Assembly: GCA_963971285.1 (NCBI GenBank)
Contig: OZ020244.1
Span: forward strand, 11,408,001 to 11,472,000
Source of the DNA: Astropecten irregularis
Taxonomy: Eukaryota; Echinodermata; Asteroidea; Paxillosida; Astropectinidae
Reading direction: 5' to 3'
DNA: 64,000 nt
Under the pieces are notes generated by a model. It did not search any database, was not told the DNA's origin, and was given only the letters and a program-made list of their open reading frames with translations. The position numbers were made by a program, and so were the translations under genes. Positions 1 through 41,678 of this stretch are shown here, piece by piece (the first letter of the stretch is position 1; each line of letters opens with the position of its first letter).

Positions 1-1239
1 AGATATTTCACCAAAAGTACCAATTCTGTTGGCAAATGGTCCTTTGATCCACATCCACAAAATGCGCTTAACAACCCCAAGACAAACGAGGTGCATATAG
101 TCTAGTGGGAATTGACTAACAAGTCCAACCGACAGATCATTCAAAGGGGACGATCCAGTTTGGTGCTGGTCATGTTCACCATGATACAGCCTTTGTGCCA
201 TAGCTGCATCAGTTCTCAAAGGTGAATCTGTGACTGGAAACACTATTTTCCCAACCCAATTTCCTTTCACGCAGCATTTCTCACACCCATAATAACCTGC
301 ATGACCTTTCACCTGCTTAACAAAGGCACGTGCTGGTGCATCACAAATGAAACATGATATGTTGACAGCTAAAGTTCTTGAACAACCCTGAACCACTAAT
401 CCGTACTCTTTTATCATCAGCATTTCTGCAATGAAATCGGCAAGAAATTCATCAACACTCGTAGGTTTATCATTGCCACAAAACAATCCAATGATAAAAA
501 CCTTTGAGGTGAAAGGCTTGACAAGTCGACCTAAAATAGGCCAAAACTGTGTTCGAGAACTTTTAAAAAGCGGAAGTCCATCAATATTAATTTGGATATC
601 AAGAGCAGTACTTGTCATCCAGTCATCAAGTCCCAAATGGGAAAGCTCCCGCTGAATGCAGGATGCTACACCAAAATGAAAATACGACCCACCGGCTAGA
701 GAACGAATGTTGTAAATCTGCTGTGTTGAAAGCAGAGTTCTAGCATCTTTTGGAAGGTCTGGATGATGTTTTTTTAGAACTTCTAGAAGGCTCCCAATGG
801 CAACATGAGAGACCTTGTTGTCAACAGCCCATTCAGCTAGAGAATGTCTCAGCTCTACCTCTTGCAAATTAGATTCAAATGAACCATCGCTATCATTCCC
901 ATCCATGTCTGATTTCGTGGAATCAGAACCATCGGCTTCGTAATCACTGACAGCAACACTACTCCCATCATCTTCAAAACTGTTATCATTCGAATGGGCC
1001 AATGCATGATTTCCAAAATGTGTCACATTCGTAATAACGGGGTTGGCAAAATCAAATTCATTATCCTCATTAACCAAATTATTGTCACTTTTAGAACTAT
1101 TAGACATGTCAGAGGCAGAACCAGTCAAAGGATTGCTTTTTGCTGTTTCGTCATTTTCAATAGCTTCCAAGTGTTCATTAACTTTCTTTTGGAGTCTTCT
1201 TCTTTTTGTCCAGTATGAAGGTTCAGTTTGCCGATCCAT
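1..1239 (-). CDS. CACTA/EnSpm-like transposase, 5' part (element A), runs off the window
   Basis: Reading from an ATG at 1239 toward position 1, the minus strand is open for 413 codons without a stop and leaves the window. The protein starts with a basic SYWTKRRR motif, followed by an acidic Ser/Asp-rich linker. It then has the core INIDGLPLFKSS...QFWPILGR, FICDAPAR, a CxxC (CEKC) and FPLDYMHLVCLG. The same landmarks, in the same order, occur in the full-length protein at 8296-10533. D220 (IDG) and D300 (CDAPAR) fit the first two acidic residues of a DDE nuclease. The third lies beyond the window. Family placement (CMC/CACTA Tnp2-like) is by motif layout only. The 60-bp array and terminal motif at 3556-5157 lie on its upstream side, as expected for its own transposon end. 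Confidence 0.75.
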   Translation of the reverse strand, partial: MDRQTEPSYWTKRRRLQKKVNEHLEAIENDETAKSNPLTGSASDMSNSSKSDNNLVNEDNEFDFANPVITNVTHFGNHALAHSNDNSFEDDGSSVAVSDYEADGSDSTKSDMDGNDSDGSFESNLQEVELRHSLAEWAVDNKVSHVAIGSLLEVLKKHHPDLPKDARTLLSTQQIYNIRSLAGGSYFHFGVASCIQRELSHLGLDDWMTSTALDIQINIDGLPLFKSSRTQFWPILGRLVKPFTSKVFIIGLFCGNDKPTSVDEFLADFIAEMLMIKEYGLVVQGCSRTLAVNISCFICDAPARAFVKQVKGHAGYYGCEKCCVKGNWVGKIVFPVTDSPLRTDAAMAQRLYHGEHDQHQTGSSPLNDLSVGLVSQFPLDYMHLVCLGVVKRILWMWIKGPFANRIGTFGEIS

Positions 1240-2745
1240 AATGACGACTGACAATGCAATCTTTGCGTGCAATTTTGTAATACTAACTTGTTCCAGGTAA
1301 TTTAGTGTGACTAACAAAATTAAGTTGCCTTGCTCTAAGATATGGCTACAACCTACAACTTTTTGTCACGTCACAAACTACCTGACAGTCTTTTACTCCA
1401 TACATGTAACTTCCCTCAAAATAAAAGAGGCAATTGTGGACAAGTGGGTCCGAAAACTATAATAAAGGAAAGGATTAAAAAATATAAAGTACTTAATATA
1501 GGAAGGAAAGCAGCTTTTTACAATTTCTACTGCTCCCAAACAATATTTTTTACTTTCAACAAATGTTCCAAGTTCCAGTCCTTAAAACCCTAATGTTAGG
1601 CCTAACGTTATGTTAGAATAGATTGAAGATATCTCTCGAATAGGCCTAACGTTAACTGTTAGGCCTATTTCTATTTTCAGTGAAAAGTACAATTTCCCTA
1701 GGGCCTACCCACTTGTTGATATAGTTTTAGGAACCACTTCTCCACAATAACCAAAACCTATAGCCCTGCTTTCTTGCATTGGCTCGGTCCTCTTGCCACA
1801 AAATGAAACCTTGCTAATAAAAGGCCCTACTAGCCTAGGGCTAGGCCTCAGTTATAGGCCCTAGGCCTACTTTATACTAGGCCAAAACTAGGCCTAACGT
1901 AGGCCTAAAAATAGGGCCTAGGTTTCAACTTCAAGTCGAGAGGACACCACCATGCAATTAATTAATAATTATCAACGTAGGCTATTTATATTTAATAGCC
2001 TAAATTTTAGGCTAACACTACACAGTACGTTAGGTGAGTTTTATACAAAAAAATTAGTATTTACTTCGAAGGTCAATACTAAAACTAACGTTAGGGCCTA
2101 GCACTTGCCTTGATTGAGGCCACCTATTCACAATCTTCAAATAGGCCTACCGCACAATTTCAAAAGTAGGCCAACCGTAATACTAATAGTACAACTAGGG
2201 GGCCTAATACAAGTATGAAGTAACGTGCATACATGTACGTACGTAGGCCCTACCTACAACAACTTACGTGTAGGCCTAGGGAGGCCCCTATTTACATGTA
2301 CTATACATGCATCATAGGCCTACAAGTACAAGTACATGAACTAAACTAGTAGTACAAAATCAACGGCTACGGTTTTTGAAACGCTACGAAATAAGCCCTA
2401 TATGTACAAATTAGGGTAGGGCCTATTTGTGCCCAAACTGTGCACTCATTGAAAAAGAAGACTTACATGTTCGGAAACTTGTCGGTTTCGTCCTTACGGG
2501 CTATAGTACCTTGATAGAAGAATTTGTAACTACAATTGGCTGGCAAATGACCACGTACTTGTCGGACTCGTAGATTAACGTTGAAGACAGGCTAGGCACA
2601 GGATCAGGAAAGCGCAGCGTACGTACACGCACGTACGTACACCTTGAATGGAAGAATTTGGAACAATGCCAATGGCGCTCACGCGATTTCTAACAGTGTG
2701 CACGCGCTCCCATCCCACGCGCACGTGATCGAGTCATGCCACAAA
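1240..2745. repeat. Noncoding stretch dense in AGGCCTA and AACGTTA motifs
   Basis: No credible coding region is visible. From about 1590 to 2430 the sequence is saturated with short palindromic words such as TAGGCCTA and TAACGTTA, in both orientations. The same words recur at 5160-5940 and inside the transposase gene at 8270-8800. It is probably the 5' flank of the minus-strand transposase gene plus simple-repeat-like intergenic DNA. No promoter can be assigned. Confidence 0.5.
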
Positions 2746-3240
2746 AGGCCTTTTCACACGACGCTGAAAAAACTCTCAACCATTGAGACATTTTTCTCAT
2801 GGTTGCGAAATCTTACAAAACGGTTTACGCTGGCCGTTTTTGCGTCCTTTCACACGGCACAGTGTAACATTTCGCAAGCCTCCCTTGAGACGGAACGCGG
2901 GTAATCGATAAACTATGCATTTTATGAATGTAAAACGCTGCTAGTACCATCACGACGCTGAGGTTGCGCGTAAAGCACGCGGGCGTGCGCGCGGTCGGCA
3001 AAGGCAATGAAACACATAGAAAATACAAGCATGCGCATTGCAAAGCACTTTGCAAGGGTCCCTTGAGAAATTTTGTCGTAGGTCTGGACCTCGGTCAAAA
3101 TCTCTCAAGGATTCACCAGGGACGTCGGTCACTCTCAAGCATTGGTGTCCTTTCACACGAGTACACTTTTGTAAGATTTCGCAACCTTGAGAAAATGTCT
3201 CAATGGTTGAGAGTTTTTTTGGCGTCGTGTGAAAAGGGCT
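2746..3240. mobile_element. Foldback MITE with ~75-bp terminal inverted repeats
   Basis: The left arm (2746-2820) begins AGGCCTTTTCACACGACG. The right arm (about 3166-3240) is its reverse complement with a handful of mismatches and small gaps, ending GTGTGAAAAGGGCT. Both arms carry ACTCTCAACCATTGAGAC and GGTTGCGAAATCTTACAAAA. The interior is a further set of short inverted repeats (CTTGAGA...TCTCAAG) without coding sequence. No clear target-site duplication is seen, so the superfamily is not assigned. Confidence 0.8.
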
Positions 3241-3555
3241 AAAGACCATAGATACAGAGACATTCTTGTTCCCATGGTTCTCCTGACGCTACGTCACTCG
3301 AATGTTTGTCCGGACGGGAACCATGCTGGCCTAACTACGAATCAGAAATCGGGTCAAAAAGATTGGAACACATTATACTTGGAATCGGATTTTTTTAAAC
3401 CTAATGTTTTGAAAAAGCGAACATATTTTTTAAGACTCGGATGTATTTTCAAAAACGTAATCAAATTTAACGACCGAACATAATCAAGTTTCGGATGTTT
3501 TTGCGAATCCGATAATTTTTCAAACATCGAGCTATCGCGCTAGAACGTGACGTAC
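3241..3555. other. Short noncoding spacer
   Basis: AT-rich sequence between the MITE and the minisatellite. No gene, promoter or recognisable repeat was found. Confidence 0.4.
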
Positions 3556-5144
3556 AGTGGACCACTGTCGGGCCACTGTCGATCGGGCCACTGTTGGCCA
3601 CGGGTACCATTCATTGCGCTCCAGCGTGACTGTGGGCCACTGTCAGGCCACTGTCAGCCACGGGTACCATTCATCCCGCTCCAGCATGACAGTGGGCCAC
3701 TGTCTGGCCAATGTCGGCCACGGGTACGTACCATTCATCACCCTCCAGCGTGACAGTGGGCCACTGTCGGGCCACTGACGGCCACGGGTACCATTCATCG
3801 CGCTCCAGCATGACAGTGGGCCACTGTCGGGCCACTGTCGGCCATGGGTACCATTCATCGCGCTCCAGCATGACAGTGGGCCATTATCGGGCCACTGTCG
3901 GCCACGGGTACCATTCATCACGCTCAAACGTGACAGTGGGCCACTGTCGGGCCACTGACGGCCATAGGTACCATTCATCGCGCTCCAGCATGACAGTGGG
4001 CCACTGTCGGCCATGGGTACCATTCATCGCGCTCATGCATGACAGTGGGCCATTGTCGGGCCATTGTCGGCCACGGGTACCATTCATCGCGCTCCAGCGT
4101 GACAGTGGGCCACTGTCAGGCCACTGACGGTCACGGGTACCATTCATCGAGCTCCAGCATGACAGTGGGCCATTGTCGGGCCACTGTCGGCCACGGGTAC
4201 CATTCAGCGCGCTCAAACGTGACAGTGGGCCACTGTCGGGCCACTGACAGCCATAGGTACCATTCATCGCGCTCCAGCATGACAGTGGGCCACTGTCGGG
4301 CCACTGTCGGCCATGGGTACCATTCATCGCGCTCCAGCATGACAGTGGGCCATTGTCAGGCCACTGTCAGCCACGGGTACCATTCATCCCGCTCCAGCAT
4401 GACAGTGGGCCACTGTCTGGCCAATGTCGGCCACGGGTACGTACCATTCATCACCCTCCAGCGTGACAGTGGGCCACTGTCGGGCCACTGACGGCCACGG
4501 GTACCATTCATCGCGCTCCAGCATGACAGTGGGCCACTGTCGGGCCACTGTCGGCCATGGGTACCATTCATCGCGCTCCAGCATGACAGTGGGCCATTGT
4601 CGGGCCACTGTCGGCCACGGGTACCATTCATCGCGCTCCAGCGTGACAGTGGGCCACTGTCAGGCCACTGACGGTCACGGGTACCATTCATCGAGCTCCA
4701 GCATGACAGTGGGCCATTGTCGGGCCACTGTCGGCCACGGGTACCATTCAGCGCGCTCAAACGTGACAGTGGGCCACTGTCGGGCCACTGACAGCCATAG
4801 GTACCATTCATCGCGCTCCAGCATGACAGTGGGCCACTGTCGGGCCACTGTCGGCCATGGGTACCATTCATCGCGCTCCAGCATGACAGTGGGCCATTGT
4901 CGGGCCACTGTCGGCCACGGGTACCATTCATCGCGCTCGAAAGTGACAGTGGGCCACTGTCGGGCCACTGACGGCCATAGGTACCATTCATCGCGCTCCA
5001 GCGTGACAGTGGGCCATTGTCGGGCCACTGTCGGCCATGGGTGGCATTCATCGCGCTCAAACGTGACGGTGGGCCACTGACGGGCCACTGTCGGCCACCG
5101 GTGGCGCTCATTGCCACTCATTTGCCACCAGTGGGCCACTGGTT
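3556..5144. repeat. 60-bp palindromic minisatellite, about 25 copies (subterminal array of element A)
   Basis: Tandem monomers of 60 bp contain GACAGTGGGCCACTGTC, a perfect palindrome with 8-bp arms and one central base, then GGCCACGGGTACCATTCATC. Counting from CATTC, monomers begin at 3608, 3668, 3732, 3792, 3852, 3912, 3972, 4021, 4081 and so on. All are 60 bp except the 64-bp monomers beginning at 3668 and 4381 (extra GTAC) and a 49-bp one beginning at 3972. Blocks are duplicated: 3668-3911 recurs 713 bp downstream, and 4081-4380 recurs 544 bp downstream. The array abuts the terminal motif at 5145-5157. All long reading frames here are artefacts of the repeat. Confidence 0.9.
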
Positions 5145-5157
5145 CTTGCTATCTGGG
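5145..5157. repeat. Terminal motif CTTGCTATCTGGG of element A
   Basis: CTTGCTATCTGGG closes the 60-bp array and matches the outermost part of the right inverted repeat of the 7430-15362 transposon. Its reverse complement opens the left repeat at 7430. Next to it is CCAGTGGGCCACTGG, which plays the part taken by CGTTGGGCCAACG in the other element. I read this as the transposon end belonging to the minus-strand transposase gene. The other end lies outside the window. Confidence 0.65.
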
Positions 5158-7429
5158 TAGGCCTAGCCCAGCATGCCCAGTGTGCAAATTCTAGGAAAAT
5201 CTGCTCTGGGCTAGGCCTAACGTTAGGCTACCTTACGTAAACTGTCCCAAAATGTCGAAGCTCGAATAAAAATCTGGTCTTAAGATTTTCTGAGAATAAT
5301 TTCTTGTGGTCTAGCCTAACTGCGAGAAACAAAGCTATCTTAGAATGTAACGTTAGTAGGCCTACAATAGCAAAAAGATGGGTTTTTATTTCAAGCGATG
5401 TGGAACTAGGGGCCTAGGAAAAATCCGTAGGCCTAGGCCTAATCATGATTGGGAAAACCACTGCACAGCATGGTTTTGCATTGAAATAGGGTAGGCCCTA
5501 AACTAACGTTAGGCCTAATGACCCTGAGTTGATGGGTGAAATCCTGAAAACAATTTCTATGCACCGGTAACATTTTTAACATCTGATGTGAGCACTTTTC
5601 AAGTAAGTTTGGAAAACTTCCCAATTTTGTTTTTAGTGGACTTTTTAGCTAGGCCCTACAGAGACTCCTAAAGCAAAGCTGCAAATGTGAAATGGTAGGC
5701 CTATCATGTAATCAAGTAAGTATCTACCACAAAAATTACTCATTGGGCCTCCAAATATTAGGCTAATGTTTAATAGGCCCGAACATTGAGCTGGTTTTGG
5801 GACATGTAGGCCTAGGCTGGGGAATAATATTTATAAATAAACAGTAGGCAAGAGGGGGCCCAGGCCTTTCAGATTCGTGGCTTTGTCATAGGCCTACAAG
5901 TAAATGCAGCAATCACTGCTAGGCCTAACTCCTTTTAGTTTTTAGATAAACACTTGAGATGCATTATTAACATTCATTTTCACAGTTCCACTTCAATCTG
6001 TGTTTTAAACTGGAGTGGAGAGTCACAAAATGTAGTGACTTGTTACAGCTGCGCGTAATAAAAGGTGTAACTGTAACTTTCATATATAGGCCCTACCCTT
6101 GTTTGTAATGACAAAATGGTTGAATAAACCTAGGCCCATATCCAATTTGATGAAGAAGTTGGTGAATAATAAGACTGTAGTCCACTTGGAAAAGGACTGC
6201 ACCTTTAAACATGTAGACACAAGTATTTATAAGGTCATGGAAAAGCCTGCCGTCCTATTCTTTACAGATTTTGTTTGTGTTCCCATGGCTATCTAGACTC
6301 TGAAGATGAACTTAAAGATGTCCTGATGTCTATGCCAGCAGATTGATGAAGCAGCATGTGACAAGGAAAAGTCATCTAAAACTTTGAAAAGGAAAATGCC
6401 AGCAGATTGATGAAGCAGCATGTGACAAGGAAAAGTCATATAAAACTTTGAAAAGGAAACAGCCAAACAGTGAAAGCAACCCACAGCTTGCTGCGAGTAA
6501 AAGAATGTGCAGAAGCATTCTAGAAAAATTGCGTGTTAGTGAGCAGACAACACAGCGATCACAGGTATGTGCAGTGTTGAATGTATATGAGGTTTTGGGC
6601 AAAATGTTCCAAAGTCTTGCACCTTAAAGTTTTAAGTTTCTGTTCAATTTTGTCTTTTACCACTCAGAAATGTTCACCTTTTTAAAATACATTTTTTTTC
6701 ATTGAGACATTGATTTAATATTTTTAGGTGTATGTTTGAAAAGCAAATGAGTAAATCTTAAAAATTAAAAAAAAGTAAATAGAATTGAAATCTGGGGTGA
6801 GATACCTCCAGATTTTTCCTGATTTCTTAATTTTTTTTTTTACGATACCTTACTTTATGATTGTGCAATATGTATGTCATGCGCAAGTAAAGAGTTCATG
6901 TTTAAAAAGAAATTCAAATGATTATTGTGCATATAAATGTACATATGCATTGCATATGTAAAATTAATACTGATCAAAATGTTGTGAATGTTTTGTTGGG
7001 GTGTGTTCCGACGCCCATGAAAGTAAAAAAAAAAACTAGAGGTTGTGTCTGTTGAAAACAGAACACAAGGCTTTTCCGTTTTTTGTCTACTCTTGATATA
7101 CTATTACTTGTTCATGTGTGTCACAAAGAAAGATAGTGCCTAACATTAACTTTTGGTGATAGAATCATGATCATAGCTCATTTAGTATAGAGGACAGAGG
7201 TCAATCAATGCATCATAAAAAGATCTTCCCTACCAATGACAGTTGCCAAAAGAATGAAGTTCATAGATGATTTTGGTTTGATTGTGAAATATTTTTGTAA
7301 ATTGTGAGATGATGTCATCGAGATGTTATATTAATATTGGTTGCTTTGTTTTGGATTTGTTGGAGAATTAAGGAAGCATGTAGGAATTTGTTCCATTTTG
7401 CAAAGATGTACGTTTTGGCTGAATTTGGT
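5158..7429. other. Intergenic DNA with AGGCCTA words and a 64-bp tandem duplication
   Basis: No supportable gene. 5160-5940 is rich in AGGCCTA and AACGTTAGGCC words. At about 6332-6460 a 64-bp unit (GCCAGCAGATTGATGAAGCA...) occurs twice in tandem. 7120-7240 holds a degenerate copy of the dispersed repeat found at 30719-30898 (CTAACATTAACTTTTGGTGA). Otherwise I see nothing here. Confidence 0.4.
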
Positions 7430-7463
7430 CCCAGATAGCAAGCATACGTTGGGCCAACGTTGG
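7430..7463 (+). repeat. Left terminal inverted repeat of element B
   Basis: 34 bp starting CCCAGATAGCAAGC and ending with the palindromic ACGTTGGGCCAACGTTGG. It is the reverse complement of 15329-15362 with one mismatch (A versus T at position 15 of the repeat). Confidence 0.85.
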
Positions 7464-7640
7464 TTTATGGTTGTATAATTGGCCGAATATCGGCGTTGGC
7501 TGAGGGCTGTTGGCCCATTATTGGCCCGACAACAGAATAATTTCTCAAGCTCGAAAAGAAAAGTTGACCGTTGGCCCATTATTGGCCCAAAGTTGCTACA
7601 AATTACGCTTATTTCGATATTGGCACGCCGTTGGCCCAAT
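7449..7640. repeat. Left subterminal TTGGCCCA array of element B
   Basis: About six copies of TTGGGCCAA/TTGGCCCA/TTGGCCCGA in both orientations, spaced irregularly by 10-60 bp. They are near 7449, 7510, 7521, 7571, 7582 and 7631. They match the array at the other end of the element and are candidate binding sites for an element-encoded protein. Confidence 0.7.
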
Positions 7641-8295
7641 ATGCATTGTGCTTCACATCAATTATTTATCAATAAAAGAAATAAAAGAAATTGGATAGTA
7701 AATGCTTTCTTTCGGTTGTTTCAAAATAATTATCGTTTGTTTTACATTATTAGGTACAAAACAATTTAAGAAATAAATGTAAATTGTCTGTGGCTTAAAA
7801 CGCTGAAATGAAATAATTATTGAACAATTTCGCGCGGCAGAATGCAGCAGCTATAGCTGGCAAACGGCCAAATGACTCGCAGTACATAACACGTAAAGTG
7901 TATACAATTAGGCGCGCATTGCGGGTGATATAGTTATACGCGCTATGTACACATACGTACAATGCCTGCCGCCTGGTTCGGACACTGTAGTCGGCCGTTA
8001 GCTAGCTCGTGTAATCTTTGATAGTTGTGTACAGTTTACGCTGACTACAAAGTACAAATCCTCACGGTCGTCTTTGCAAGTCAAGCATCCGAGATCAGAC
8101 CATCTGTGCAACCGATCAACCGGACTTTATAGCTCAACAAATATCCACGTACGATACTGCTGAAGTGCATGCTAGTTACTTGAGATGAGGTTTGTCATAT
8201 AACTTTTTAAATCAATTTCTTAAAGCCGTGCAAATCCATGTTTCGGAATCTGATTATGTACTGTACAGGCTAGGCCTAGGCTAGGGCTATCTAAA
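7641..8295. promoter_or_regulatory. 5' flank of the element-B transposase gene
   Basis: Noncoding stretch between the subterminal array and the transposase ATG. No TATA box at a convincing position is seen. Splicing of an upstream noncoding exon cannot be excluded. The last 50 bp carry AGGCCTAGGC words like those inside the gene. Confidence 0.35.
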
Positions 8296-10533
8296 ATGTA
8301 CAAGGCATCATCGTATTGGACAAAGAGAAGGAAATTAGAAAGTAGAGTTTCAGAGCACATTAATGACATAATTGAAAGTAATAATCCAAAGCAACTTAGG
8401 TCCAACTGTGGAGATGACATGGGCCTAGGCCTTGTAGGTCTCTGTTCGAGCAACAATGGTCATGATTGCGAACTAGGCCTAGGTCTATCGCCATCGGCGA
8501 TAGTGCCTGATGATGCAGTTACAGCACTGACAGCAAGCACGTCTGATGAAGAACACTCAAACTTAAGGAATGTTGATAATGATATGATTGATGAGCATGT
8601 AAGTGTAACAGATGTCTTGCATGGTCCTGCTTGCAGCACAAACAATCATGACAATAACCTATCATTTGATTACCCAATGATGCTTCCTGAAGAGGCTTTG
8701 CAAGTGTACCATTTTCATGAGGACACTCTTGATCATTCTAGTAGTACTGGAACTGGAAGTGAAATTGACTTAGGCCTAGGCCTAGATGAAAGTGGGACTA
8801 GGCCTATGAGATCGGAAGCAAAGTTGATAGCAGATATCAAAAATTGGGCAATACAAACAAATATTCCTATCTCGGCTCTTGGTGCACTACAGGAAATACT
8901 AAAGGTTTATTTTCCTTCGATGCCAAAAGATCCACGGACTTTGTTGAACACAAAAACATCTTTTGTTGTAAAAGATATTGCTGGAGGCCAGTATTATTAT
9001 TTTGGAATCGTAGATAACATCAATGACATTCTTCAGTCACATATTGAGTTATACGATGAGTCATCCCTATATTTGCAAGTGAACATTGATGGATTGCCTC
9101 TATTTAGAAGCTCTAGCACACAATTTTGGCCTGTCTTAGGTCGTTTGATGGGTTGCCAAGAGCCATTTATCATTGCTTTGTTTGTTGGAGAATCCAAACC
9201 CACAAATGTTTCAGAATACTTGCATGACTTTATTGAAGAAATTGTCAAACTTAAAAGTGAAGGTTTTGATATGGGTGATAAACATTTCACTCTCCATGTT
9301 TCATCATTCATATGTGACACACCTGCAAGAGCATACATCAAGAGAGTGAAGTCACACAGTGGTTATCACGGTTGTGATAAATGTTGGGTGGAAGGGGAGT
9401 GGGAAAATAAAATGTTATTTCCACAAGTTGATGCAAAATTGAGAACTGACGATGAATTTCTCGAAATGGCAGATGAGTTTCATCACCTAGAAGAGTGTCC
9501 ATTAAACAACATAGGTATAGGCCTAGTATCGGCATTCCCGCTTGATTATATGCATCTGGTGTGCTTAGGCGTCACTCGTCGATTGTTACTGCTCTTGATT
9601 AAAGGCCCCCTACAGTGCCGATTAAGTGGGATAAGAAGGAAGGAGATATCTGACAACCTGGTGAATCTCAGAAACAGTGTTCCCCGGGAGTTTGCAAGAC
9701 GCCCACGGTCCTTGAAGGAAATTGACCGCTGGAAAGCAACCGAATTCCGACAGATACTATTGTACACTGGGAAACTAGTTTTGAAGCGAAGAGTTTCAAA
9801 GACGGTTTATGATCACTTTCTACTACTTTCTGTTGCAATGCATATCCTCCTGAACCCAGGATTATGTCAGGTGTACAATGACTATGCACAACAATTACTG
9901 GTGTTGTTTGTGGAACAGATGGGTAGTATTTATGGTAGGAGCCAGTTTGTTTACAATGTTCATGGACTCATTCACTTAGCGAGTGATGCTAAGCAGTTTG
10001 GAACTTTGGATAATATTTCCAGCTTTCCATTCGAAAACTTTCTCCAGAAACTCAAGAAAATGATAAGGAAACCATCACATCCTCTTATGCAGGTTGTGCG
10101 TCGCCTTTCAGAAGACAGACTGACACATTCATGTGACAAAAACAAGCAGCCTTGTGTAAAACGAGAGCACTCGAATGGTCCTTTACCTCAGAGTATCCAG
10201 CCCCATTGTACTAAGCAGTACAAAGAACTTCACTTAAGCTCAAGTACCATCACAATAACTTGGAAAGACAGTTGCATTAAAGTTGGTGATGGCGTTGGGA
10301 TCGTACGCAACATTTTGTTGGATGGGCAAATTATTGTCATCTATGAACTCTTCAGAGTGGTAGATAATTACTTCATGACCCCATTGCCATCCGGCTGTCT
10401 TGGCATACACAAGGTAAATGGGCTAGATGGTGTACTACGTTCATGCTCCATTGCAGATATTAGATGCAAGTGTGCAATATTCCCTTGCAGAAGGGCATAC
10501 TTAGCTGTAGCATTAAATCACCAGGTCTTTTGA
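8296..10533 (+). CDS. CACTA/EnSpm-like transposase, full length, 745 aa
   Basis: A single uninterrupted reading frame starts at ATG 8296. It begins with a basic SYWTKRRK segment and an acidic linker (residues about 30-180), followed by the nuclease core. A plausible DDE triad is D265 (NIDGLPLFRS), D341 (FICDTPAR) and E580 (SFPFENFL). Between them lie C360/C363 (HGCDKC) and H420 (LDYMHLVCLG), which fits the zinc-binding insertions of CMC-type transposases. The role would be cutting and rejoining element ends in the nucleus. The protein shares its motif order with the partial protein at 1-1239 but differs widely in sequence. The AGGCCTAGGC words at about 8420, 8475, 8770 and 8800 are translated as LGLG repeats. 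The frame is intact, so activity is possible. Family placement is by motif recognition, not by search. Confidence 0.8.
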   Translation: MYKASSYWTKRRKLESRVSEHINDIIESNNPKQLRSNCGDDMGLGLVGLCSSNNGHDCELGLGLSPSAIVPDDAVTALTASTSDEEHSNLRNVDNDMIDEHVSVTDVLHGPACSTNNHDNNLSFDYPMMLPEEALQVYHFHEDTLDHSSSTGTGSEIDLGLGLDESGTRPMRSEAKLIADIKNWAIQTNIPISALGALQEILKVYFPSMPKDPRTLLNTKTSFVVKDIAGGQYYYFGIVDNINDILQSHIELYDESSLYLQVNIDGLPLFRSSSTQFWPVLGRLMGCQEPFIIALFVGESKPTNVSEYLHDFIEEIVKLKSEGFDMGDKHFTLHVSSFICDTPARAYIKRVKSHSGYHGCDKCWVEGEWENKMLFPQVDAKLRTDDEFLEMADEFHHLEECPLNNIGIGLVSAFPLDYMHLVCLGVTRRLLLLLIKGPLQCRLSGIRRKEISDNLVNLRNSVPREFARRPRSLKEIDRWKATEFRQILLYTGKLVLKRRVSKTVYDHFLLLSVAMHILLNPGLCQVYNDYAQQLLVLFVEQMGSIYGRSQFVYNVHGLIHLASDAKQFGTLDNISSFPFENFLQKLKKMIRKPSHPLMQVVRRLSEDRLTHSCDKNKQPCVKREHSNGPLPQSIQPHCTKQYKELHLSSSTITITWKDSCIKVGDGVGIVRNILLDGQIIVIYELFRVVDNYFMTPLPSGCLGIHKVNGLDGVLRSCSIADIRCKCAIFPCRRAYLAVALNHQVF

Positions 10534-10580
10534 ATACTGATTTTGCAACGGACAATCTCTTTCAAAGTGACATAGTTTAA

Positions 10581-10652
10581 CAGGGTTGTTTGATTTAAAT
10601 CACGTTGATTTAAATCGCCGATTTAAATCGCGATTTAAATCGCGATTTAACT
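10581..10652 (+). repeat. hAT-like terminus with GATTTAAATC palindromes
   Basis: CAGGGTTGTTTGATTTAAATC is followed by several copies of GATTTAAATCG. The same end, inverted, lies at 17531-17553. CAGGG is a typical start for hAT-type ends. It sits between the two genes of element B and is probably a separate nested remnant. No 8-bp duplication is found. Confidence 0.5.
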
Positions 10653-10821
10653 TTTACACCAGTGTTTATGTATGAATTTGGTTATTTTTTAAACAGATTC
10701 ACCGAAACTTTCCTCACACTTTGAACTTTTTAATCCCATCTCGAAATGCATGGTTTTTAGAATTTGATACATTGAAAAGATCTGACAAAGTAAAGATGGT
10801 GACTGTATTATGTTACTCAGT

Positions 10822-13596
10822 ATGTATGCAGTGGTCGAGTTTGTTGGGGAGGAGTCTGTAGCTTTAGCAGCAGAGAACTGGTTGAAAGACACTGGCACAT
10901 CTGTGATGTGGCCGCCTTACAAGTCACAGACAAGAGTGGATAGAGCTGTGCTGAAGTGTGAGCCGCCAACAGATGGCTATCAGAAGTTTCCCTGCCGTGT
11001 TTTGTACAAAACTAGTAAGTTTTAGACAACAAATAACAACAAGGGAAACTGACTGGATTAGGGTAAATGCAGTTTATCATGCTTCACAGGTTTAACACCC
11101 CCATCCAGAAGAATGTGCAGCATTATGTTTGCATAAAATATATCTCTACCAATATTGTGTACGATTTAGTTTCAACTTAACAATTTGCATACTTCATTGA
11201 CCATAATTATAAATGCATGGTTATTGTACCTTGATCTAGAGAAAGGTGGTTGGTTTGAATTTAATTGTGAATGATTTAAAAATGGTCTATCAAGCCAGGT
11301 GTCAAAAATTGATACTGAGGAAGTTTCCAACAGCAACTTTTAGAAAGTATATAGACATAACACACTAGTTATATATATTTGTAAATATTTTCATTTCTTT
11401 TCATGTTTATAGGCTCATATGAGAAAGGCTTGACCAAAGTGAGGAAGGCAGAGGACATTTCGGATTTGGCCTCAGATGCTGAATGTGCTGGTATCCCTGT
11501 GAAGAGGAAGTCAAGGTAACAATGCAACTCATTTCAGATAGGTTATTGATTTTAAAAGTCTCAGTCAAATAACTCACTAAATATAAATTGTGACTAATGG
11601 TGCAAGCAAAAATTGATCTAGGATTTTCATTCGTCCTTCAAATGGGAATGAATATTTTCAGGTTGTGTTTTCCCTTAACAATTTTATGGTTACAACTGCA
11701 TGAATTTGTATGGCAAATTGAAATTGACACTGCTTTAGAAAGCGCAAACCCAATTCTGTGTGATGGACTGGGAAAGTTGGTTCTTGGTTTTCAACTCATG
11801 GAGTTAATCAATTCCAGCAGTTGGAGCTTCACTACTATTGGTAGTATGTGACGCAATTGACTTTTTCACTTTTGTTGACCACATTTTCTAGGCCAAATCC
11901 ACGTTACCAAGATAGTGATTCATCTTCTAGTGGGGACAGCCCAGGACCTTCACACAACATTCAGAGAGGCAATCAACAAAAGCAACAACCATCAGCTGCA
12001 ACTTCTACATCAAAGACGCCTCCTCGAGCACTGCCTTCTCCACCCTCGTCCTTGATCAGTCAGTGGCCAGTTCCGGTTTGTACAGGTAATTTTATAGTCA
12101 TTCTACAAAGTGGATCGAAACAACTGATTCGGGGACTGTTGTTTTTTTTTTTAAGGCAGGGCGGGGCAGAAAATGGTGTTTCTGTGTTATAAATTTGATT
12201 TGTTCCCAACGTGTAACAACTCAGATTTACTTCATAGTCCTGATGAATCCTCCAAAAATTGATTCAGTTTTGCACACCCCCACCCGGAAATTAGGGTTTA
12301 TTAATTGATTTACTGACTTTGAAGCCTTATAGATCTTAATTTGCTTTGTAAACATTTTAAAGCCTGAACTAATTTGCAGAAGCTTCAACCTGAAAATGCA
12401 TTAGTTTGCTCCACCATTCAGGTTTTGGTTATATAGTAAGTTATCTAGGATGTTGTACTTACTTTATATTACTTACTTAGGGATATTATACACAGGGCTT
12501 TCCAGCTTTCAAATAATAGATCAGTTTTTAACTGTTAGTTCTTTGATCTCTGTTTTCTAACAGTTGACTTTTCCCCGTTTATATTTATAAGAATTATTTA
12601 TATTTTTCATTTCATTTTTCCTGGTTTATACACATAGCTACAGAAAAGAAAATATTGACGGTGCTTGAAGAGGTCAAGATGTTCCAAGCGGGAAACAGGG
12701 CAATGCTGATTAGCATCTGTAGGAAGCTTGACAACAGTGCGCAGGGTAATTTAGCTACAACCAGTGGTCTTCCAGAAGAGGTGGTACTTCCTTTGAAGTT
12801 GGTGAAGGACATGCGAGACATGGAAACTACCCTGAACAACTTTGAGAAGGAGAAACAATTGGTGGGCTATTACTTAATGTTTGTATAGCTATTTAGAGAT
12901 GAACTTCGTTTTCTTTATCTTCTAAAGGACTGCAAACAGTTACATTTAAATTCACATTCACCTTAAGCGTTTAAGTTTCAATCGTGTACACCATTCAATA
13001 CAGCTGTTTTATTTTTCTGTTAAGGTGACATACTTATCCAACATCGGGGGAGACAGTCTCAAGAGCATCGTGCGAAGAATCCTAACATGTGTCATCAGCA
13101 ACGACCTAGCTCGACAATATAACTGGGTGGGCAAAGGAACCAAGGAAGCATTTTGCAAGCTGAGGCTTGTTGCTGTCATCCATAGTAAGTAATTGGACTG
13201 TTTGTTTTTATCTCATGGACCTTAACAAAAATAGCCCAGAACGGGATATGCGCAATGAACTCTGGGAAGAATGTTCGATAAGGTCCATGAGGCTAACTGA
13301 TTGAAATCCTGCCTTTCCATTCCATCATCTTCCTTCGCTTTGACAATAATGACCCAAATCTGGCCAATTATTTTCTAGGAGCCGTTCGAAGAAACCCATC
13401 CGTGCAGTCGGCCACTAATGCTGAAATTGATGAGGTCATCAAAGTGTGGCTCCGCTACTCAAAAGACCGAGATGGTGGGAGGGCAGCAAGACGAGCAGCC
13501 GCCGCAGCTGTAGCTGAGTCTGAAGCAAGCAAGAGTCCTTCTAATCTTGATGAACTTTCCACTGAGGAATACAGCAGCAACAGTGACAGGGAATAA
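10822..13596 (+). CDS. DUF4806-domain protein, six exons, 363 aa, second gene of element B
   Basis: Model: 10822-11014, 11413-11515, 11892-12085, 12638-12861, 13025-13184, 13379-13596. All introns are GT-AG and every junction keeps phase. The protein opens with MYAVVEFVGEESVALAAENW and a WPPYKSQTR motif, a conserved start seen in DUF4806 proteins. A basic segment, a Ser/Pro/Gln-rich linker (exon 3) and a helical part (exon 4) follow. The DUF4806 core spans exons 5-6 (LSNIGGDSLKSIVRRILT, ISNDLARQYNWVGKGTK). The C-terminus is Ala-rich and acidic. An ATG at 10810 could add four residues. The domain has no agreed function. Lying inside the transposon's inverted repeats, the protein may be an accessory factor that binds the subterminal repeats. 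That role is inference. Confidence 0.8.
13212..13291. mobile_element. 80-bp mini-foldback element in the last DUF4806 intron
   Basis: CTCATGGACCTTA at 13212-13224 is repeated exactly in inverse orientation at 13279-13291. The termini match the MITE at 31011-31389 (ATGGACCTTATCGG). It lies wholly within the intron between 13185 and 13378. Confidence 0.65.
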
Positions 13597-14960
13597 ATGC
13601 CGTTCATTAGCTTTTCAAACAAAGAAGCATTCTTCATTTGAAAAGTGTTTTCAAAAGCTTTTTTAAAGAAAATGTTTTTTTATTCAGTTTTATTCAGTCA
13701 CTTGATTACATCGACCTAATTATGTTCAAATTGTGATTCTTTTGCGATGATCGATCACCCAAATTTGTTGAAGTCCTTGCTTTTCAATCAGTTATGTGAT
13801 GGTCAGTGTAGGTTGATGCATAAAGCCTGATTCATTTTCCAGTTTACATTTGAAACACTGGTACAGTATATGTATTTAGTAAATATAAACGTTTCAACTG
13901 AAAGCTATTGCTTGCACTGGTTCTTTTTATTACCCAAAATAATTGAAAGTCAAGTACAATACATGTATAAGTTCTGCTGCCACCAAGAAGCCCTTGCCTG
14001 TTACCAGTTTTTTTACTAACCATTTGTTTATCCATTTAGTCTAAGTAGTTTTTATGTAAAAGGTTGCATAATGGAATCTTTTAAAATTAAAGCTTTAAAA
14101 TCTTCGAGCAAGTCCTGATGCTGAAAAAACACAAGTTGGGTGTTTTATCTTTAATCTCTGAATTACTTTAAGGAGAAAAATCAAAACTTCTGTGGTTAAA
14201 ATAATGCTGGGGAATTTCCTCAATGAGATGTGTGTAGAAGGAACTTCAAAATGATTACTTGTTTTCCTCTTTTCATCGGTCGTTTCTTTTCTAAGACCTC
14301 ATTTTATTTACACCTGAGACTTTTCGGAAATGCAACAGCCGATACCACAAATCATATGTAGCTTTTTTTTCTTTATAATAGCCCAAGTAAGAATTACAGC
14401 ATAGTTAAACAAGATTACCTCTGCAGGGAGAGAGATTGTTAAGATTTTAGTTCATTTGTTGAGCTTGGTTTTTTTTATATCTAATTCGTGGCAATATTGC
14501 AATTTTCTTGCAGTTTACTTTCCAAAGTTTTTTTTAAGTGTATTTTTGTTAAAATACGGTCACAAAGAAAAACATGTACATGTACATGTATAACTTATGC
14601 TTTTAACATGTTGTCATAAGGGCAGTACTTAAAAAATTGGTTTATGAAGTTAAGGGATTTTTTATTCTTATTTCTTGAAGCCCAATCCTCAAAATATGCA
14701 GATAAAGAATCTAAACCTGCTTTGGGGTTAAGTTAACCTTTAATTTATTATTGTTTTGTTAGCTTTGAGAATGTGAGCAAATGAGTTAAGATTTAACATT
14801 GGACCAAATTATAATTTTACAAAGAAAGAATATGAACGCTGTTTCCTTTATTTTTGTTATGGCTATTTTTAAAGGTCCCCCCCCCCCCCCCGTCAAAACA
14901 TTCGTAACTATCATTTTGGTACTGTGCAGATGAGCCCTGACACCAACCAAATATTTTACC
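13597..14960. other. 3' noncoding part of element B
   Basis: AT-rich DNA after the DUF4806 stop. A run of C (14877-14891) and a TGTACA-rich palindrome near 14573-14590 are the only marked features. No further gene is seen. The polyadenylation site was not fixed. Confidence 0.4.
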
Positions 14961-15345
14961 AGGCCCAACCATTAACCAATTATGCCTACGGACGTGTAGG
15001 CCCGTGATTGGCCCAACTAAGACCCAACAATCGGCTGAGGACAATTGGCCCAACCAAGCAATTTTAGTATTGGCCCAACCTTGGTCAAATGTCGGTCATT
15101 GGTTGGAAGTATTGGTCCGATGTTGGCACAACCGTAACCCAACAATCGCTGAAGCCTCATTGGCCCAACCATTAAAATGTTGCTATTGGCCCAACGATGG
15201 GCAAAGGTTGGCCATTCGGTATAAGTAATCGGCCCAACGTCAACCCAACATGTTGGCCCAACCGACTACCGATGAGCAAATCCAAATCGGGCCAATGTGG
15301 GACGCCAATGTTGGGCCAACAATTAAATCCAACGTTGGCCCAACG
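14961..15345. repeat. Right subterminal TTGGCCCAAC array of element B
   Basis: At least ten copies of TTGGCCCAAC, TTGGGCCAAC or GGCCCAACC in 385 bp. They lie near 14961, 15009, 15047, 15071, 15160, 15187, 15232, 15255, 15312 and 15335. Copies differ in spacing and are not a simple tandem repeat, which fits protein sites better than replication slippage. Confidence 0.75.
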
Positions 15346-15362
15346 TAAGCTTGCTATCTGGG
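15329..15362 (-). repeat. Right terminal inverted repeat of element B
   Basis: 34 bp ending CTTGCTATCTGGG, the reverse complement of 7430-7463 with one mismatch. It is followed by GT, matching the GT before the left end. Confidence 0.85.
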
Positions 15363-17160
15363 GTACTTAATCAGAAGTGAAGGTCTTGAACTTAGACGTT
15401 GTTTCATGTACATGTTCACGCTAATTTGTTCACTCAACTGGATAGCAGAAATAAGCCAGAAATAGTCTTGCCCTCCCGAATCCCTCACGGTGGTTACACC
15501 ACACATTTCGAAATGCTACTGAACGAAATTATTATAGCGCCCTCTCACATAAATTCAATCACATGCGGTCGATCGCTTTTGTGCGTAGATACATTACATG
15601 TACATGTAGTTAGTTTGTTTTTCTCATGATGATGTGGGACTGGAAACGAGTCTAAGACCTTTCTTTAGCATGCAATGTCACAGACCAAGTTTTTGCCAAC
15701 CAGCATGGCGGAAACTATGGCGAGCCGTCGAAAGCCACGCATAAAAAAATAATCACAATTTTAAACACAACGTTTCATAAACATGGAAAGATATTGCTTT
15801 GCTAAATGTCATGGAAACAACACAAACAATGATGGTATGCATTTTGTATGCTATGGGAATTTGGTAAACATGTTGAATTTGGTCACGCCGTCTGTCAAGA
15901 AGATGAAATGATTTGCAACATTAGGCTGCCCATACCACGTATTGCCAACCAGCGCGTCCGTCCGTGTAAAATGTAAACAAATAAAAGCAAGGTCTATCCG
16001 TCTGTGTGTAGGTGACCTGGTTTCCGCCTCATTGTAAATGAAAATCTCGACTGAAGCTGCATGGATCGGAAACCAGACTGTCTGCAGCGATACCGTAAGT
16101 GAAGGTTTGAGGCGATTTATTACAAGCAGAACTGGGTTAAATTTCCTTGGTTAGGCATAGTTGTTTATGATTTAATGTCATTTAATGAAATTGTTGAATA
16201 CTTAAGATTACAAATGTTATTGTTGTGTTAGGTATACTTGGTAAATTTATGACGTTTTTCATTGCTGGATCCGTGGACATGACGGATGGCTAGTTGACTC
16301 ATGAATGCATGTGACGTACGTGCGCTATGCATGACCACGATGGCATTTTGTACATCGTAGGCCTACCACGAAAAGAATACAAAACCTTTTTACATTATTT
16401 AATGATTGTTTGGTATGTGAATTGTGAAAGAATATTCTCTATAGAATAGTAATGAATATGCTGAAATAGATAAAGTATTAAATATTTATTTGCATGATAC
16501 ACATTTCATTGAAATTCTTGGTCTAACGTTAGACTAGGCCTAGGGCCGGGGTTCTAGCCGCTAGGCCCTAATTTGAAATAGCGTTCCGCACTAATGACGT
16601 CACACCGTGCATGCACGCGCACACATACCTCCACTCACCACACGTTTGCATGGCCGGTTGCAATGTTTGTCTGAGGTTCGGTGCTATTTTTAGCTCAAGT
16701 GCGCAGCGCTATTGAAGAATTTGTTTGATTTGAGCTTGCTATGTTTATGCTTGCCCATTTTCCGGACAGTGGCTACTCAAACCTTTGACTTAATCTAACT
16801 AAAGTGAAAGAATTCCACTGGTGGCCATTACGGAAAAAGGGTTACATGTATATCCTCGCTAATTCCATAGATTATATTAAACCATTAGTCATTATGTTAA
16901 AAAGATTATCCTCCAAGAGTTAACTTATTGGATACAAATTATTATGTATTTCAATCTCAGGTGTATACAACTTTGGTAGCATGTCTGAAAAAGGAATATT
17001 ACACTACAGGTTTTAATTTTACCTACATTAATTAATACTCTTAATGCAGCGTGAGTGATTTTTTTGTAAAATGCCCTCTGTCGGTTCAATAGATTTATGC
17101 ACAAGTGATGATCGTCAATGGAATTCTTCCCTTATGTTTTTCCAATACATTAACTTAAAA

Positions 17161-18414: not shown

Positions 18415-18472
18415 GAAGATGTTTTCTAGCTGGTGACAATTTTTTTTTTTATTTTTTTTTTATTTTTTACAG

Positions 18473-21307
18473 ATGGCTCTGAACTGTATGAAGATGGCAG
18501 AGAGTATTTCATCTATCAAAAATCCTGGCATGTGCCAGGTACCTGGTGTATGCCAGGTACCTTCGGTGTGCCAGGTACCTGTGATGTGCCAGGTTGATAA
18601 CAATAAAAATCCTGGCGTGTGCCAGGTACTTGGTGTATGCCAGGTACCTGCGGTGCGCCAGGTACCTGTGATGTGCCAGGTTGATAACAATAAAAATCCT
18701 GGGGTGTGCCAGGTACCTGGGGTGTGCCAGGTTCAAAATCCTGGGGTGTGCCAGGTGCCTGGGGTGTGCCAGGTTCAAAATCCTGGGGTGTGCCAGGTAC
18801 CTGGGGTGTGCCAGGTTCAAAATCCTGGGGTGTGCCAGGTACCTGGGGTGTGCCAGGTTAATAACAAGAAAAATCCTGGGGTGTGCCAGGTACCTGGGGT
18901 GTGCCAGGTTAATAACAAGAAAAATCCTGGGGTGTGCCAGGTACCTGGGGTGTGCCAGGTTAATAATAACAAGAAAAATCCTGGGGTGTGCCAGGTACCT
19001 GGGGTGTGCCAGGTTATGAGAATAAGCGTAACAAAACCTGAGAACCAAATGAGAACAATACTAAATGAACAAATCATGAGAACAAATGAAGTTGAGAACA
19101 TGATGATGACAAAAGACAGTGTTGTCTGTAAAATGCATGAAATGAAAACTGACATATTTGATTTGTGTGGAATCAGTTGTCAGACATCAAGCTCCAGTAA
19201 AGCAAAAGTTATCAATGGAAATCATGTGATGAAATGCTATCTTTTACAGATTGTGAGACCTAAGAAATTGCAGTTGAAGAAGCTACAGAAGGATTATGAG
19301 AGGAAGATACAACATGACAGACAAAACAAAGTGAGTAATCTGAGACAAGAAAGGAAGAAACGATTGTCACGTGTTAGTAATTTGCATGGTGTGCAATGGC
19401 TGAAGAAGTATGGTTGGACAAAGCATAGTGGTGGGGGATGTGTTTTGAATTGTGTTGAAGAGATATATGAACGAAAAGGAAGAAAGAGACCATCACGACG
19501 GTACAAGAAGAAAGTGAGAAAACAGGTATTCAGGCAAACTCACAATATCAGGAAAGGAGGAATGGTAATAGAGAGTCGCATGACCAAGAAGGATAGAAAG
19601 GCACATAAAGATGAACAGACACTTATCTGGAAGCATACAAATGGAAGTATAAGTACAGTTTTTAAGAAGATGAAGTTCTTGAAAGACAAAGCAAATGAAA
19701 TGAGGAAGAGACAGAGATGTATTCATAAGATGAGCAAACAGGTTTCTGATAAGAGGATAAAACAGATCAAAGAGCAAGATAAAAGTGGTAGCAAATGTGC
19801 TAGGAAAGTGGATACAGGAGACAGAAATAGTAATGCTAATGCAGATGGACAGTGTTGGATTTGTGATGAGATGATCAAGCCATGGGACTTCAAATTACAG
19901 TGTTATTGTGGGTTATGGTATCATGTTGATTGTATGGGAGTTACAAGTTGTATTGGAAATCATGTCTTGCTAAACAAGTCAATTGTATGGATATGTTGCA
20001 AATGTCGAGGGAGTAACTACTGTAAATATTTATATGACTGTTCTGACATTTCTGCAGATTTGACTGTATTTGATGTGATGTTGACTAGTTTTGAAGAGGA
20101 TGTTGACGAACAAACGGAAGAGGATTTTGACAGTCGGGCAATGAACAGAAATGTTGAAGGTATATATGCATGTGGTAACAAAAAACAAACAGTACCAGAG
20201 CAATCAGGAGGATATACATTGAGGAATAGAAAGAAATCAGAATCTAATACAGGCAAACAAGATGCTGAGGGTGTATCTTTGACGGATGGTAATGAGAAAT
20301 CTAATGATGGTAAAACTTGCAGAAGTCATGAAAAATCAAAACAATGTTCAAAGAGTGATCAGGGTGAATCATGTAGAGTGAAGCAAAATACCAAGTATGC
20401 TCTGAGAAGTAGAATGAGATCAGTATCACCTCATAGTAATAAGAAGGGATATGAGAAGATGCCAAAGGTCACAGGTAATGACAGTATTAATAGCACCAAA
20501 TATATTAACACACAGCAGGACATAAAGAAGCCCCAAAACATGCAAAGTGATACATATGAAAACAGTGGAAATAGTGGAGTTGTAAGTGCATCAGATAATA
20601 TGATTGTACAGGGTAGTTTCCATCAAGGTGATTTTAGATTTGGAAATAATACTGGTAAACAGTGTGTTGCAAATAGTCTGTGCGCTATACTGTATAGCAG
20701 AATTAACAAGTTAGATGAATGGTGCTCTAATGAAATGGACTTTGTGTTGAATACTGGAAATGAATTGTATGGTTTTTTATCACATAGTTCTACAGTAGAG
20801 AATGATTATTTGTTGATCAGTGAGTTGCCAGAGGAAATAGATGTTTTCAGTCAGCATTTCTGTGTTCTATTCCATGAATCTCTGTCTGGTACCTTTGGAG
20901 AAAATACAAATCTGTCAGAATTCAATATGATTTCATTGAGTAATGCTCTGGAGCAGACTCTTCACAAGTATACAGCATGTTTTATCTGTTTCCATATGAA
21001 CACATTTTCAGTTATTGTTCAGGATGGATTGTATTATATTTTTGATTCACATTCTAGAAATCATAATGGCAGACTAGACTGTAACGGCAGAAGTCTTCTG
21101 AAACGTGTGGCTTCATGGCAAGGTGTGTACATGTATTGTATAGAACTTGGAAATTCTATGAATGTGTCTGATTCTGAGCAGTTTGAAATTACAGGAGTCA
21201 GTGTTCAGATTAATAATGAGCTGAATGTTTGTAATCATGAACTTAAAGACAATAGTGAAAGTGTTTGCACTGAATGTAATGTTAAAGATGTAGAATCTGA
21301 ATGTTAA
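18473..21307 (+). pseudogene. Helentron N-terminal part: repeat region, PHD-like finger, C76-like protease-like domain
   Basis: The first ATG of a 944-codon frame directly follows a long T-tract and CAG (splice-acceptor-like), so an upstream exon is possible. Residues about 15-180 are (N)PGVCQVPGVCQV repeats. A Lys/Arg-rich region follows. A Cys/His-rich finger (CWICDEM...CYCGLWYHVDC...WICCKC) lies at about 19853-20010. The last third has GKQCVANSLC (candidate nucleophile Cys near 20663) and YYIFDSHSRN (Asp/His near 21050), as in C76-like proteases reported with Helitron-type elements and large DNA viruses. The TAA at 21305 is in frame with the OTU region downstream, so I treat it as a nonsense change rather than a natural end. 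Confidence 0.65.
18524..19013 (+). repeat. 18-bp minisatellite CCTGGGGTGTGCCAGGTA/T inside the Helentron frame
   Basis: About 25 copies of an 18-bp unit, often paired into 36-bp units with spacers AATAACAAGAAAAAT or TCAAAAT. Each unit is a small inverted repeat (ACCTGG...CCAGGT). It stays in frame and codes PGVCQV repeats. Other strands and frames are also open, which is a by-product of the repeat. Confidence 0.85.
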
Positions 21308-22915: not shown

Positions 22916-24331
22916 AAAAATCTGAAATATAAGTATCGCCACGATGCAAATTATCGCAAGAAAATAAAACAGAGGAATTTAAGACAAAAAAAGAAAAGAA
23001 ATCAACATGCGCGCAAAATGAGGAATGTTATTACAAATTGGAAAAAAGAAGTATCATCAGGACCTGAGTATGTTTGTGCAGTTTGTTGTAAACTTTTGTT
23101 TAAAAACCAAGTTATTAGATGCAATAAAGACAAATACAGTAATATTAGTTGCATATCTGACAAATATTTACATAATTGCATATGTACAAAAGACTGTGGA
23201 AATGAATGTCTTGTATCAAAATCAAGCAGGTCAAGATTATGGATATGTTACACATGTCATAGGACATTACTGCAGAAGAAAGTACCAGTTGAAGCATGTA
23301 CAAATAATTTGGAATTGATAGACATTCCACAGGAATTGGATTGTTTGAATATATTAGAGGAGCATCTCATTGCAATTAATGTACCGTTTATGAAACTTAT
23401 AGCACTGCCAAAGGGAGGTCAAAATGGAGTCCATGGACCAGTTGTATGTGTACCATCTAACATTGTAGAAACAGTCAGTGCATTACCAAGATGAGGGAAT
23501 GAGAATCAATTAATAAGAATCAAGTTAAAGAGAAAATTATCTCATAAAGGATATTATCAATATCAATTTGTGACTAGGGAACATGTGGAAAATGCATTAA
23601 GATATCTTAAGGAAAACAATGTATGGTATAAAGATATTGAAATCAACTGTGATTGGAATGATCCCCTGTTAGATGATGAACATGATGAGGAACATGAAGA
23701 TGAAATGGCAAATGAATCTGATGAAGCCATTGTAAGTGATGAAGAAACAGATGAGGATCGTTTGTGTGGTATTCCACTTGATACATGCTTACAGCCTATA
23801 GATATTGGACAAGAAGTGCTTGATCAATACTTTGAAGATATATTTTGTGTTGCACCTTGTGAAGGAAACAATCCAGTTAGAGTGTTAATGGAGAAAGGTA
23901 ATGAGGCTAAATGTTTTCCAGCATTATTCCCAGAAGGCTCACCTATATTTGATGATAAACGTGATGGAAAGCTGACACGCCTGAGATATTTTCATAATAG
24001 ATTGATGAATGCAGATAACAGATTTGCCAAATGTACTCAGTATATCTTCTATGCCCAGTATTTATCAGAAATTGAAAAGGTCATGTCTGGTGTATCAATT
24101 GCTATGCGTCAAAGTTCAGGTAAAATGCATTATGGTCAAAGTGTGAATTCTAGCATGATTAAGGACAGAGATCAATTAAATGATATTTTACAGTCAGATA
24201 GTGGGTATAGATTTATGAAACCAATCAGAGGTACACCGTCATATTGGCAATCAACTCAGAGAGATGTTATGGCTATGATTAGACAACTTGGAATACCAAC
24301 ATGGTTTTGTTCATTTTCTGCTGCTGATTGA
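22916..24331 (+). pseudogene. Helentron zinc-finger (DUF6570-like) and Helitron-like N-terminal region
   Basis: The same frame continues past 22915 through another basic repeat. A Cys-rich unit (CAVCCKLL...WICYTCH, about 23074-23265) comes next, then a segment ending GQNGVHGPVVCVPSN that resembles the DUF6570/Helitron-like start. TGA at 23492-23494 interrupts it. From 23500 to 24331 follow an acidic linker and the Helitron-like N domain (EKGNEAKCFPALFPEGSPIFDD, GTPSYWQSTQRDVMAMI, PTWFCSFSAAD). One base is missing just after SAAD (near 24328), shifting the frame of the Rep domain. Confidence 0.65.
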
Positions 24332-41482: not shown

Positions 41483-41678
41483 GCTGGGGTCTGCAGGGTG
41501 AATCGAATCCAATATCGCGGCGGGTGCCGCAGTAAATCATAAATATCGATGATTTTGGTCGGGAAATAGAAAATGTGCAAAATAGGCCTGCCCTTCACCG
41601 ACGTGGATGGAGCACTGCATATTCAGTGCTTGTGAGAGCACGTGAGAAAAAATCACACTTGCTCAGACCCTGCAGACC

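Follow-up and report, generated by a model that had tools for sequence, protein, structure and literature searches.

A CACTA-like element of Astropecten irregularis with a putative transposase gene and a predicted DUF4806 gene between the same ends

Plant CACTA transposons are described as working with two proteins, TNPA, which recognises subterminal repeats, and TNPD, the putative transposase, both of which are required in Spm (PMC2613891). The termini of these elements are conserved, the subterminal repeats diversify, and the TNPA-like proteins of different elements are little alike (PMC2613891). TnpA is furthermore reported to repress or activate the promoter of maize Spm (PMC1636069). In animals, the TRC elements of the CACTA superfamily carry CCC ends with a 2-bp direct repeat alongside, and SmTRC1 gives rise to shorter splice products that lack the transposase domain, one of which was proposed to be TNPA-like (PMC1636069). 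Termini of the CMC (CACTA-Mirage-Chapaev) type run CA..TG "in most cases", while D, D, C(2)C, H(3)H, and E motifs are common to EnSpm, Mirage, Chapaev, and Transib (PMC12730594). Here, we describe a 64,000-nt stretch of DNA from Astropecten irregularis (GCA_963971285.1, contig OZ020244.1, 11,408,001–11,472,000, forward strand; "the window"), within which positions 7430–15362 were confirmed as a structurally complete element (element A) and which also holds one end of a second, divergent element (element B, terminus at 5157, minus strand). Element A is the only complete copy seen, and all anatomy given below was read from this one window.

On balance, element A is probably a two-protein, CACTA-like animal transposon in which a DUF4806 protein would be the equivalent of TnpA at the subterminal sites and the transposase would act at the terminal 13 bp. 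According to this model, recognition of the terminal 13 bp (CCCAGATAGCAAG) would fall to the transposase, which would also cut the DNA and join it, duplicating 2 bp of the target. The DUF4806 (BEN-type) protein, as a dimer or in a larger assembly, would occupy the near-palindromic TTGGSCCAA sites behind each terminus and unite both ends so that the transposase can act on them. In addition, it may repress or activate the 5' promoter of the element, as reported for TnpA. We infer which protein would bind which site, the need for both, and their role in transposition.

Ends and genes of element A

Element A begins with CCC and ends with GGG. A direct comparison of 7430–7463 with 15329–15362 bears out the 34-bp inverted repeats at 33/34 identity that an earlier note on this DNA had described, the sole mismatch being at position 15, and with a repeat-finding tool the arms can be followed for 37 nt at 95 % identity. 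The GT target duplication named in the same note is likewise present, with flanks reading ...AATTTGGT and GTACTTAATC and GT on both sides. Taken alone, a 14-bp inverted match would be ordinary in 64 kb, because each of 20 simulated 64-kb windows contained 13 to 49 fourteen-mer inverted seeds, and the GT duplication is weak evidence by itself, as two bases agree by chance in 1/16 of cases. For the 33/34 match, in contrast, about 1e-9 would be expected (our own arithmetic, assuming equal base frequencies). The CCC ends and 2-bp target duplication of the animal TRC branch are thus both found in element A. The description of the locus as an intact-looking, 7.9-kb CACTA-like transposon stands with regard to the two genes inside one boundary, the residue series of the transposase (see below), and the CCC/2-bp pattern, but not with regard to CACTA ends: a start with CA was looked for and is absent, so that we use the name "CACTA-like" and not CACTA. 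A CA..TG terminus is not a strict criterion for the group, since it is limited to most cases in PMC12730594 and the animal TRC elements have CCC.

As proposed earlier, the first gene is an uninterrupted frame of 745 codons, with no stop from the ATG at 8296 to 10533, no introns, and a G+C content of 0.408. Its product carries a series of residues (Table 1; the catalytic residues were picked by eye) that resembles that of the EnSpm/CACTA-Mirage-Chapaev group and would make it a DDE transposase of the CMC type. The sole Pfam match at E up to 10 is DUF4218 (7.3e-06, 26.3 bits), just under the cut-off of 27, and Transposase_21 gave no match in the same search. DUF4218 is a marker of CACTA transposases. 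The label "transposase" is putative, drawn from the residue series together with this near-match. No solved structures related by sequence were found, and a fold model built from two sequences reached a mean pLDDT (predicted local distance difference test) of 31.3, too poor for use. Relatives could not be confirmed in viral contigs or prokaryote genomes, which is what one would expect of an animal element.

The second gene follows the transposase on the same strand, within the same pair of ends. The six exons with clean phases that had been noted before hold up as a prediction, in which five introns, all GT-AG, interrupt an open frame coding for 363 residues; the G+C content is 0.484 in the exons and 0.333 in the introns. 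The splice sites were rated with a coarse score, by which donor 4 and acceptors 2 and 3 come out weak. The predicted protein matches Pfam DUF4806 (PF16064) with 7.8e-07 and 29.8 bits, above the curated cut-off of 25, over residues 211–283 (profile 4–79 of 90), and the match spans the junction of exons 4 and 5. Six matches of the protein by sequence to ribosomal L15 structures (E 0.16 to 0.62) were taken as chance. Exon 1, folded alone, gave a pLDDT of 65.7, and a search of the PDB with this model returned 0/138 matches at E 0.001 or better; its matches, mostly ribosomal chains among the 50 matches listed, were also taken as chance. A transcript starting at the 5' end and spliced over the transposase, like tnpA in Spm, was considered and dropped: with the coarse score no good splice donor was found in 7650–8300, although an acceptor of middling score sits just before the ATG.

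The DUF4806 gene could also be a captured host gene that is carried as a passenger in a single copy and plays no role in transposition. In favour of this are the single complete copy seen, five predicted introns as compared to none in the transposase frame, and exons richer in G+C than the transposase (0.484 vs 0.408), and DUF4806 proteins of several animals have been reported with unknown or unspecified roles. Still, we consider such a capture unlikely, as the gene retains an open frame and a recognisable domain in its place behind the transposase. Plant CACTA elements, moreover, are described as needing a second, multi-exon DNA-binding protein (PMC2613891), and in a domain table of a Hydra paper, DUF4806 appears next to transposase domains, its counts being 69 and 54 for the two Hydra species and 0 to 6 for the five other columns (PMC7642931). 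These counts fit a link to transposons and are no proof of one.

Table 1. Features of elements A and B, with positions in the window
Feature	Positions	Strand	Basis or detail
Element B transposase, N-terminal part, off window edge	1..1239	-	homology to element A transposase
Element B 5' subterminal array, 60-bp period	3540..5157	-	repeat analysis; 26 TGGSCCA cores
Element B terminus	5145..5157	-	pattern match; shares its first 13 bases with the terminus at 7430
Element A, left GT target duplication	7428..7429	.	flank TTTGGT followed by CCCAGATAG
Element A, left (5') terminal inverted repeat, 34 bp	7430..7463	+	starts CCC; 33/34 vs right end
Element A, 5' subterminal array	7430..7650	+	TGGSCCA cores at 21, 82, 143, 154, 203 bp from end
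Element A, putative transposase open reading frame, 745 codons	8296..10533	+	D265, D341, C360-x2-C363, H556-x3-H560, E580; DUF4218 below cut-off
DUF4806 gene, predicted exon 1	10822..11014	+	gene model; start ATG
DUF4806 gene, predicted exon 2	11413..11515	+	gene model
DUF4806 gene, predicted exon 3	11892..12085	+	gene model
DUF4806 gene, predicted exon 4	12638..12861	+	gene model, Pfam; DUF4806 match starts at residue 211
DUF4806 gene, predicted exon 5	13025..13184	+	gene model, Pfam; DUF4806 match stops at residue 283
DUF4806 gene, predicted exon 6	13379..13596	+	gene model; with stop
Element A, 3' subterminal array	14940..15362	+	TGGSCCA cores at 21, 45, 103, 170, 196, 286, 311, 348 bp from end
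Element A, right (3') terminal inverted repeat	15329..15362	-	pairs with left end
Element A, right GT target duplication	15363..15364	.	flanking sequence

Subterminal sites and a second, divergent element

Both ends of element A are densely set with the core TGGSCCA (written with S; positions are counted in bp from the element terminus), in agreement with the subterminal arrays recognised earlier: there are 5 copies in 7430–7650, 8 in 14940–15362, and none in the interior of 7,289 bp between them (7651–14939). Outside the arrays of elements A and B, the core occurs once in 1–3539, not at all in 5158–7429, and twice in 15363–64000. One of these last two copies sits in a 19-bp-unit array at 47939–48285 that forms a large inverted repeat. 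In 5,000 trials with simulated ends of the same dinucleotide make-up, the ends of element A contained 0.42 cores on average and at most 4, as compared to 13 observed. All 13 cores are preceded by T, and at 11 of these 13 sites the palindrome extends one base beyond the core. A core starts 20 or 21 bp from the terminus at both ends of element A and at the 5' end of element B, and at both ends of element A the core at 21 bp is part of the terminal repeat.

Element B was recognised by its terminus: on the minus strand, with its end at 5157, the 14-base terminus pattern of element A recurs once, with a single mismatch in its final base. Behind it lie a 1.6-kb array of 60-bp repeats with the same core and, on the same strand, a relative of the transposase that shares 38 % identity with that of element A over 453 columns (4e-83) and 54 % over the catalytic part compared. 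Both D residues and C(2)C are present in this relative, and the window edge comes before the H motif and E; a Pfam search with it at E up to 1 came back empty, and the other terminus of element B was not found inside the window. Element B provides a link between terminus and transposase that does not depend on element A. Weak transposase matches at 33176–35144 (E 0.16 and 0.42) were judged to be noise. Between the array and the transposase of element B, a pair of 49-bp inverted repeats (94 % identity, 397 bp between them) at 2746–3240 marks a fold-back or miniature element.

With this second element at hand, it is hardly credible that the ends of element A derive from unrelated repeats between which the two genes came to lie by chance. 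A pair of ends at this distance was indeed seen only once. However, the ends match at 33/34 positions, are flanked by matching GT, and share the same core in both arrays, and in element B a homologous transposase accompanies the identical 13-bp terminus and is placed on the same side of it.

The two elements differ in the base that precedes the core, which is G in 26/26 sites of element B as compared to T in 13/13 of element A. In element B, 18/26 sites are palindromic one base out and 16/26 two bases out, and its 26 cores compare with a mean of 0.83 and at most 6 in ends simulated by the same dinucleotide procedure. At the 5' ends, four sites start at matching distances in A and B (21/20, 82/82, 143/142, and 203/202 bp), the array of element B continuing to 1519. 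Between 80 and 210 bp, 3/3 sites of element B fall within one base of a site in element A; a placement simulation gave 1.15e-4 for this, a post hoc value for what is, on the side of element B, in effect one period and one phase. Outside the cores, the 5' ends are 27.5 % identical over 149 positions, which is near chance. Over positions 60–210 with the cores included, identity is 33.3 %, as compared to a mean of 24.6 % and a largest value of 41.3 % at other ungapped offsets, and we claim no alignable similarity between the two 5' ends outside the cores.

Another scenario is that the DUF4806 protein mainly regulates the promoter of the element or host silencing, rather than acting in the cutting complex. 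The spacing common to A and B is confined to the 5', promoter-side ends, the CpG observed/expected ratio is high in the 5' stretches (1.02 in 7430–7700 and 1.24 in 7700–8296 vs 0.45 and 0.42 for the bodies of the two genes), and the BEN protein Insensitive (Insv) of Drosophila is known as a chromatin boundary factor (PMC6317261). However, the 3' end, far from the promoter, is also rich in sites (8 cores in 423 bp), and one site lies inside the terminal repeat at both ends, so that a mainly regulatory function seems to us quite improbable.

The DUF4806 protein as a candidate second subunit

The earlier note had held DUF4806 proteins to be without a known role. This is out of date, given that a 2024 paper, citing Pan et al. 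2023, terms DUF4806 a BEN subtype (PMC11075544). Genes of the family have been reported in Hydra, zebrafish, beetle, and mosquito. For Insv, it was described that the BEN dimer binds the palindrome CCAATTGG and that multimers could bridge distant DNA (PMC6317261). The accessible parts of the literature on DUF4806 and on BEN proteins and transposons yielded no placement of either protein in CACTA elements, with Repbase and Dfam outside the search.

Several observations weigh against a DUF4806 protein in the place of TnpA. Only 4/13 sites of element A are palindromic two bases out, the Insv palindrome is absent from the ends of element A, and the half-sites of element A run TTGG..CCAA, the reverse of the CCAA..TTGG of Insv. 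Pfam finds no BEN family in the DUF4806 protein even at E up to 10, and the link to BEN therefore comes from the DUF4806 label and from a paper known through the one that cites it. Element B leaves the window before the position of any second gene, its 26 sites, most of them within a tandem array, do not count as independent, the site at 154 bp in element A is without a counterpart in element B, and the spacing at the 3' end of element A is unlike that at its 5' end. Furthermore, the model is built on one complete copy, and even in plant elements the action of TNPD on the 13-bp ends is described as an unproven proposal (PMC2613891). The proposal that DUF4806 is a structural part of a transposon is thus partly supported, by a single complete copy.

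If a BEN-type protein does occupy the place of TnpA, as we favour, animal CACTA-like elements would have a defined two-part machinery and the DUF4806 family a testable job, and a way in which BEN-type regulators came to spread through animal genomes would suggest itself. Elements A and B, with the same terminus, core, and matching 5' spacing and a different flanking base, represent a ready test of whether sites and protein change together. A wider and more tentative conjecture, which we hold to be possible rather than likely, is that the DUF4806 family arose as the subterminal-binding subunit of CACTA-like transposons and has kept this role in many animals. On this view, DUF4806 or BEN-type genes that stand alone in animals would be remnants of transposons, either domesticated or stranded, and some of the BEN repertoire would have a transposon origin.

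Neighbouring features and comparison with known systems

The remainder of the window contains further repeats and mobile-element candidates. Long open reading frames lie on the plus strand at 18437–21307 (with a match to Herpes_teg_N) and 24328–28044 (Helitron_like_N, PIF1 helicase, and Exo_endo_phos); taken as a pair, they look like a Helitron-like element. On the minus strand, frames at 51713–54311 with matches to reverse transcriptase and to a phage-integrase N-terminal domain resemble what we take to be a tyrosine-recombinase retroelement of the DIRS/Ngaro type. Blocks about 3.64 kb apart at 40098–47289 share 97–99 % identity, indicating a recent large duplication, and a 300-nt block is repeated 1.74 kb apart (98 %) at 33068–35108, with near-identical broken frames on the minus strand.

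Among known systems, Drosophila Insensitive offers a parallel for the putative site-binding protein, being a DNA-binding dimer that acts on a palindrome with CCAA half-sites and forms multimers (PMC6317261). Insensitive is, however, a host chromatin factor and not transposon-borne, and differs in the order of its half-sites and in a BEN domain that Pfam does not detect in the DUF4806 protein.

Also comparable are the plant elements Spm/En, Tam1, and Tgmt* with their TNPD and TNPA proteins, which share with element A a conserved 13-bp terminus, asymmetric and subfamily-specific subterminal repeats, and a transposase accompanied by a multi-exon second protein (PMC2613891). Unlike element A, the plant elements have CACTA termini, and Tgmt* has a 3-bp duplication (PMC2613891). 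The genes of element A are, in addition, predicted as separate units and not as splice forms of the kind found in plant CACTA, and the DUF4806 protein is likened to TNPA by description and not by sequence.

The animal TRC/CACTA elements, that is, SmTRC1 of Schistosoma mansoni and the elements of Tribolium and Aedes, differ from element A in that its second protein is a DUF4806 protein, a comparison drawn from their description and not from protein sequence. They resemble it in their CCC ends, 2-bp direct repeat, and transposase gene (PMC1636069), and the end of the Tribolium element (CCCTAGTAGCA) has CCC and TAGCA in common with that of element A (CCCAGATAGCA).
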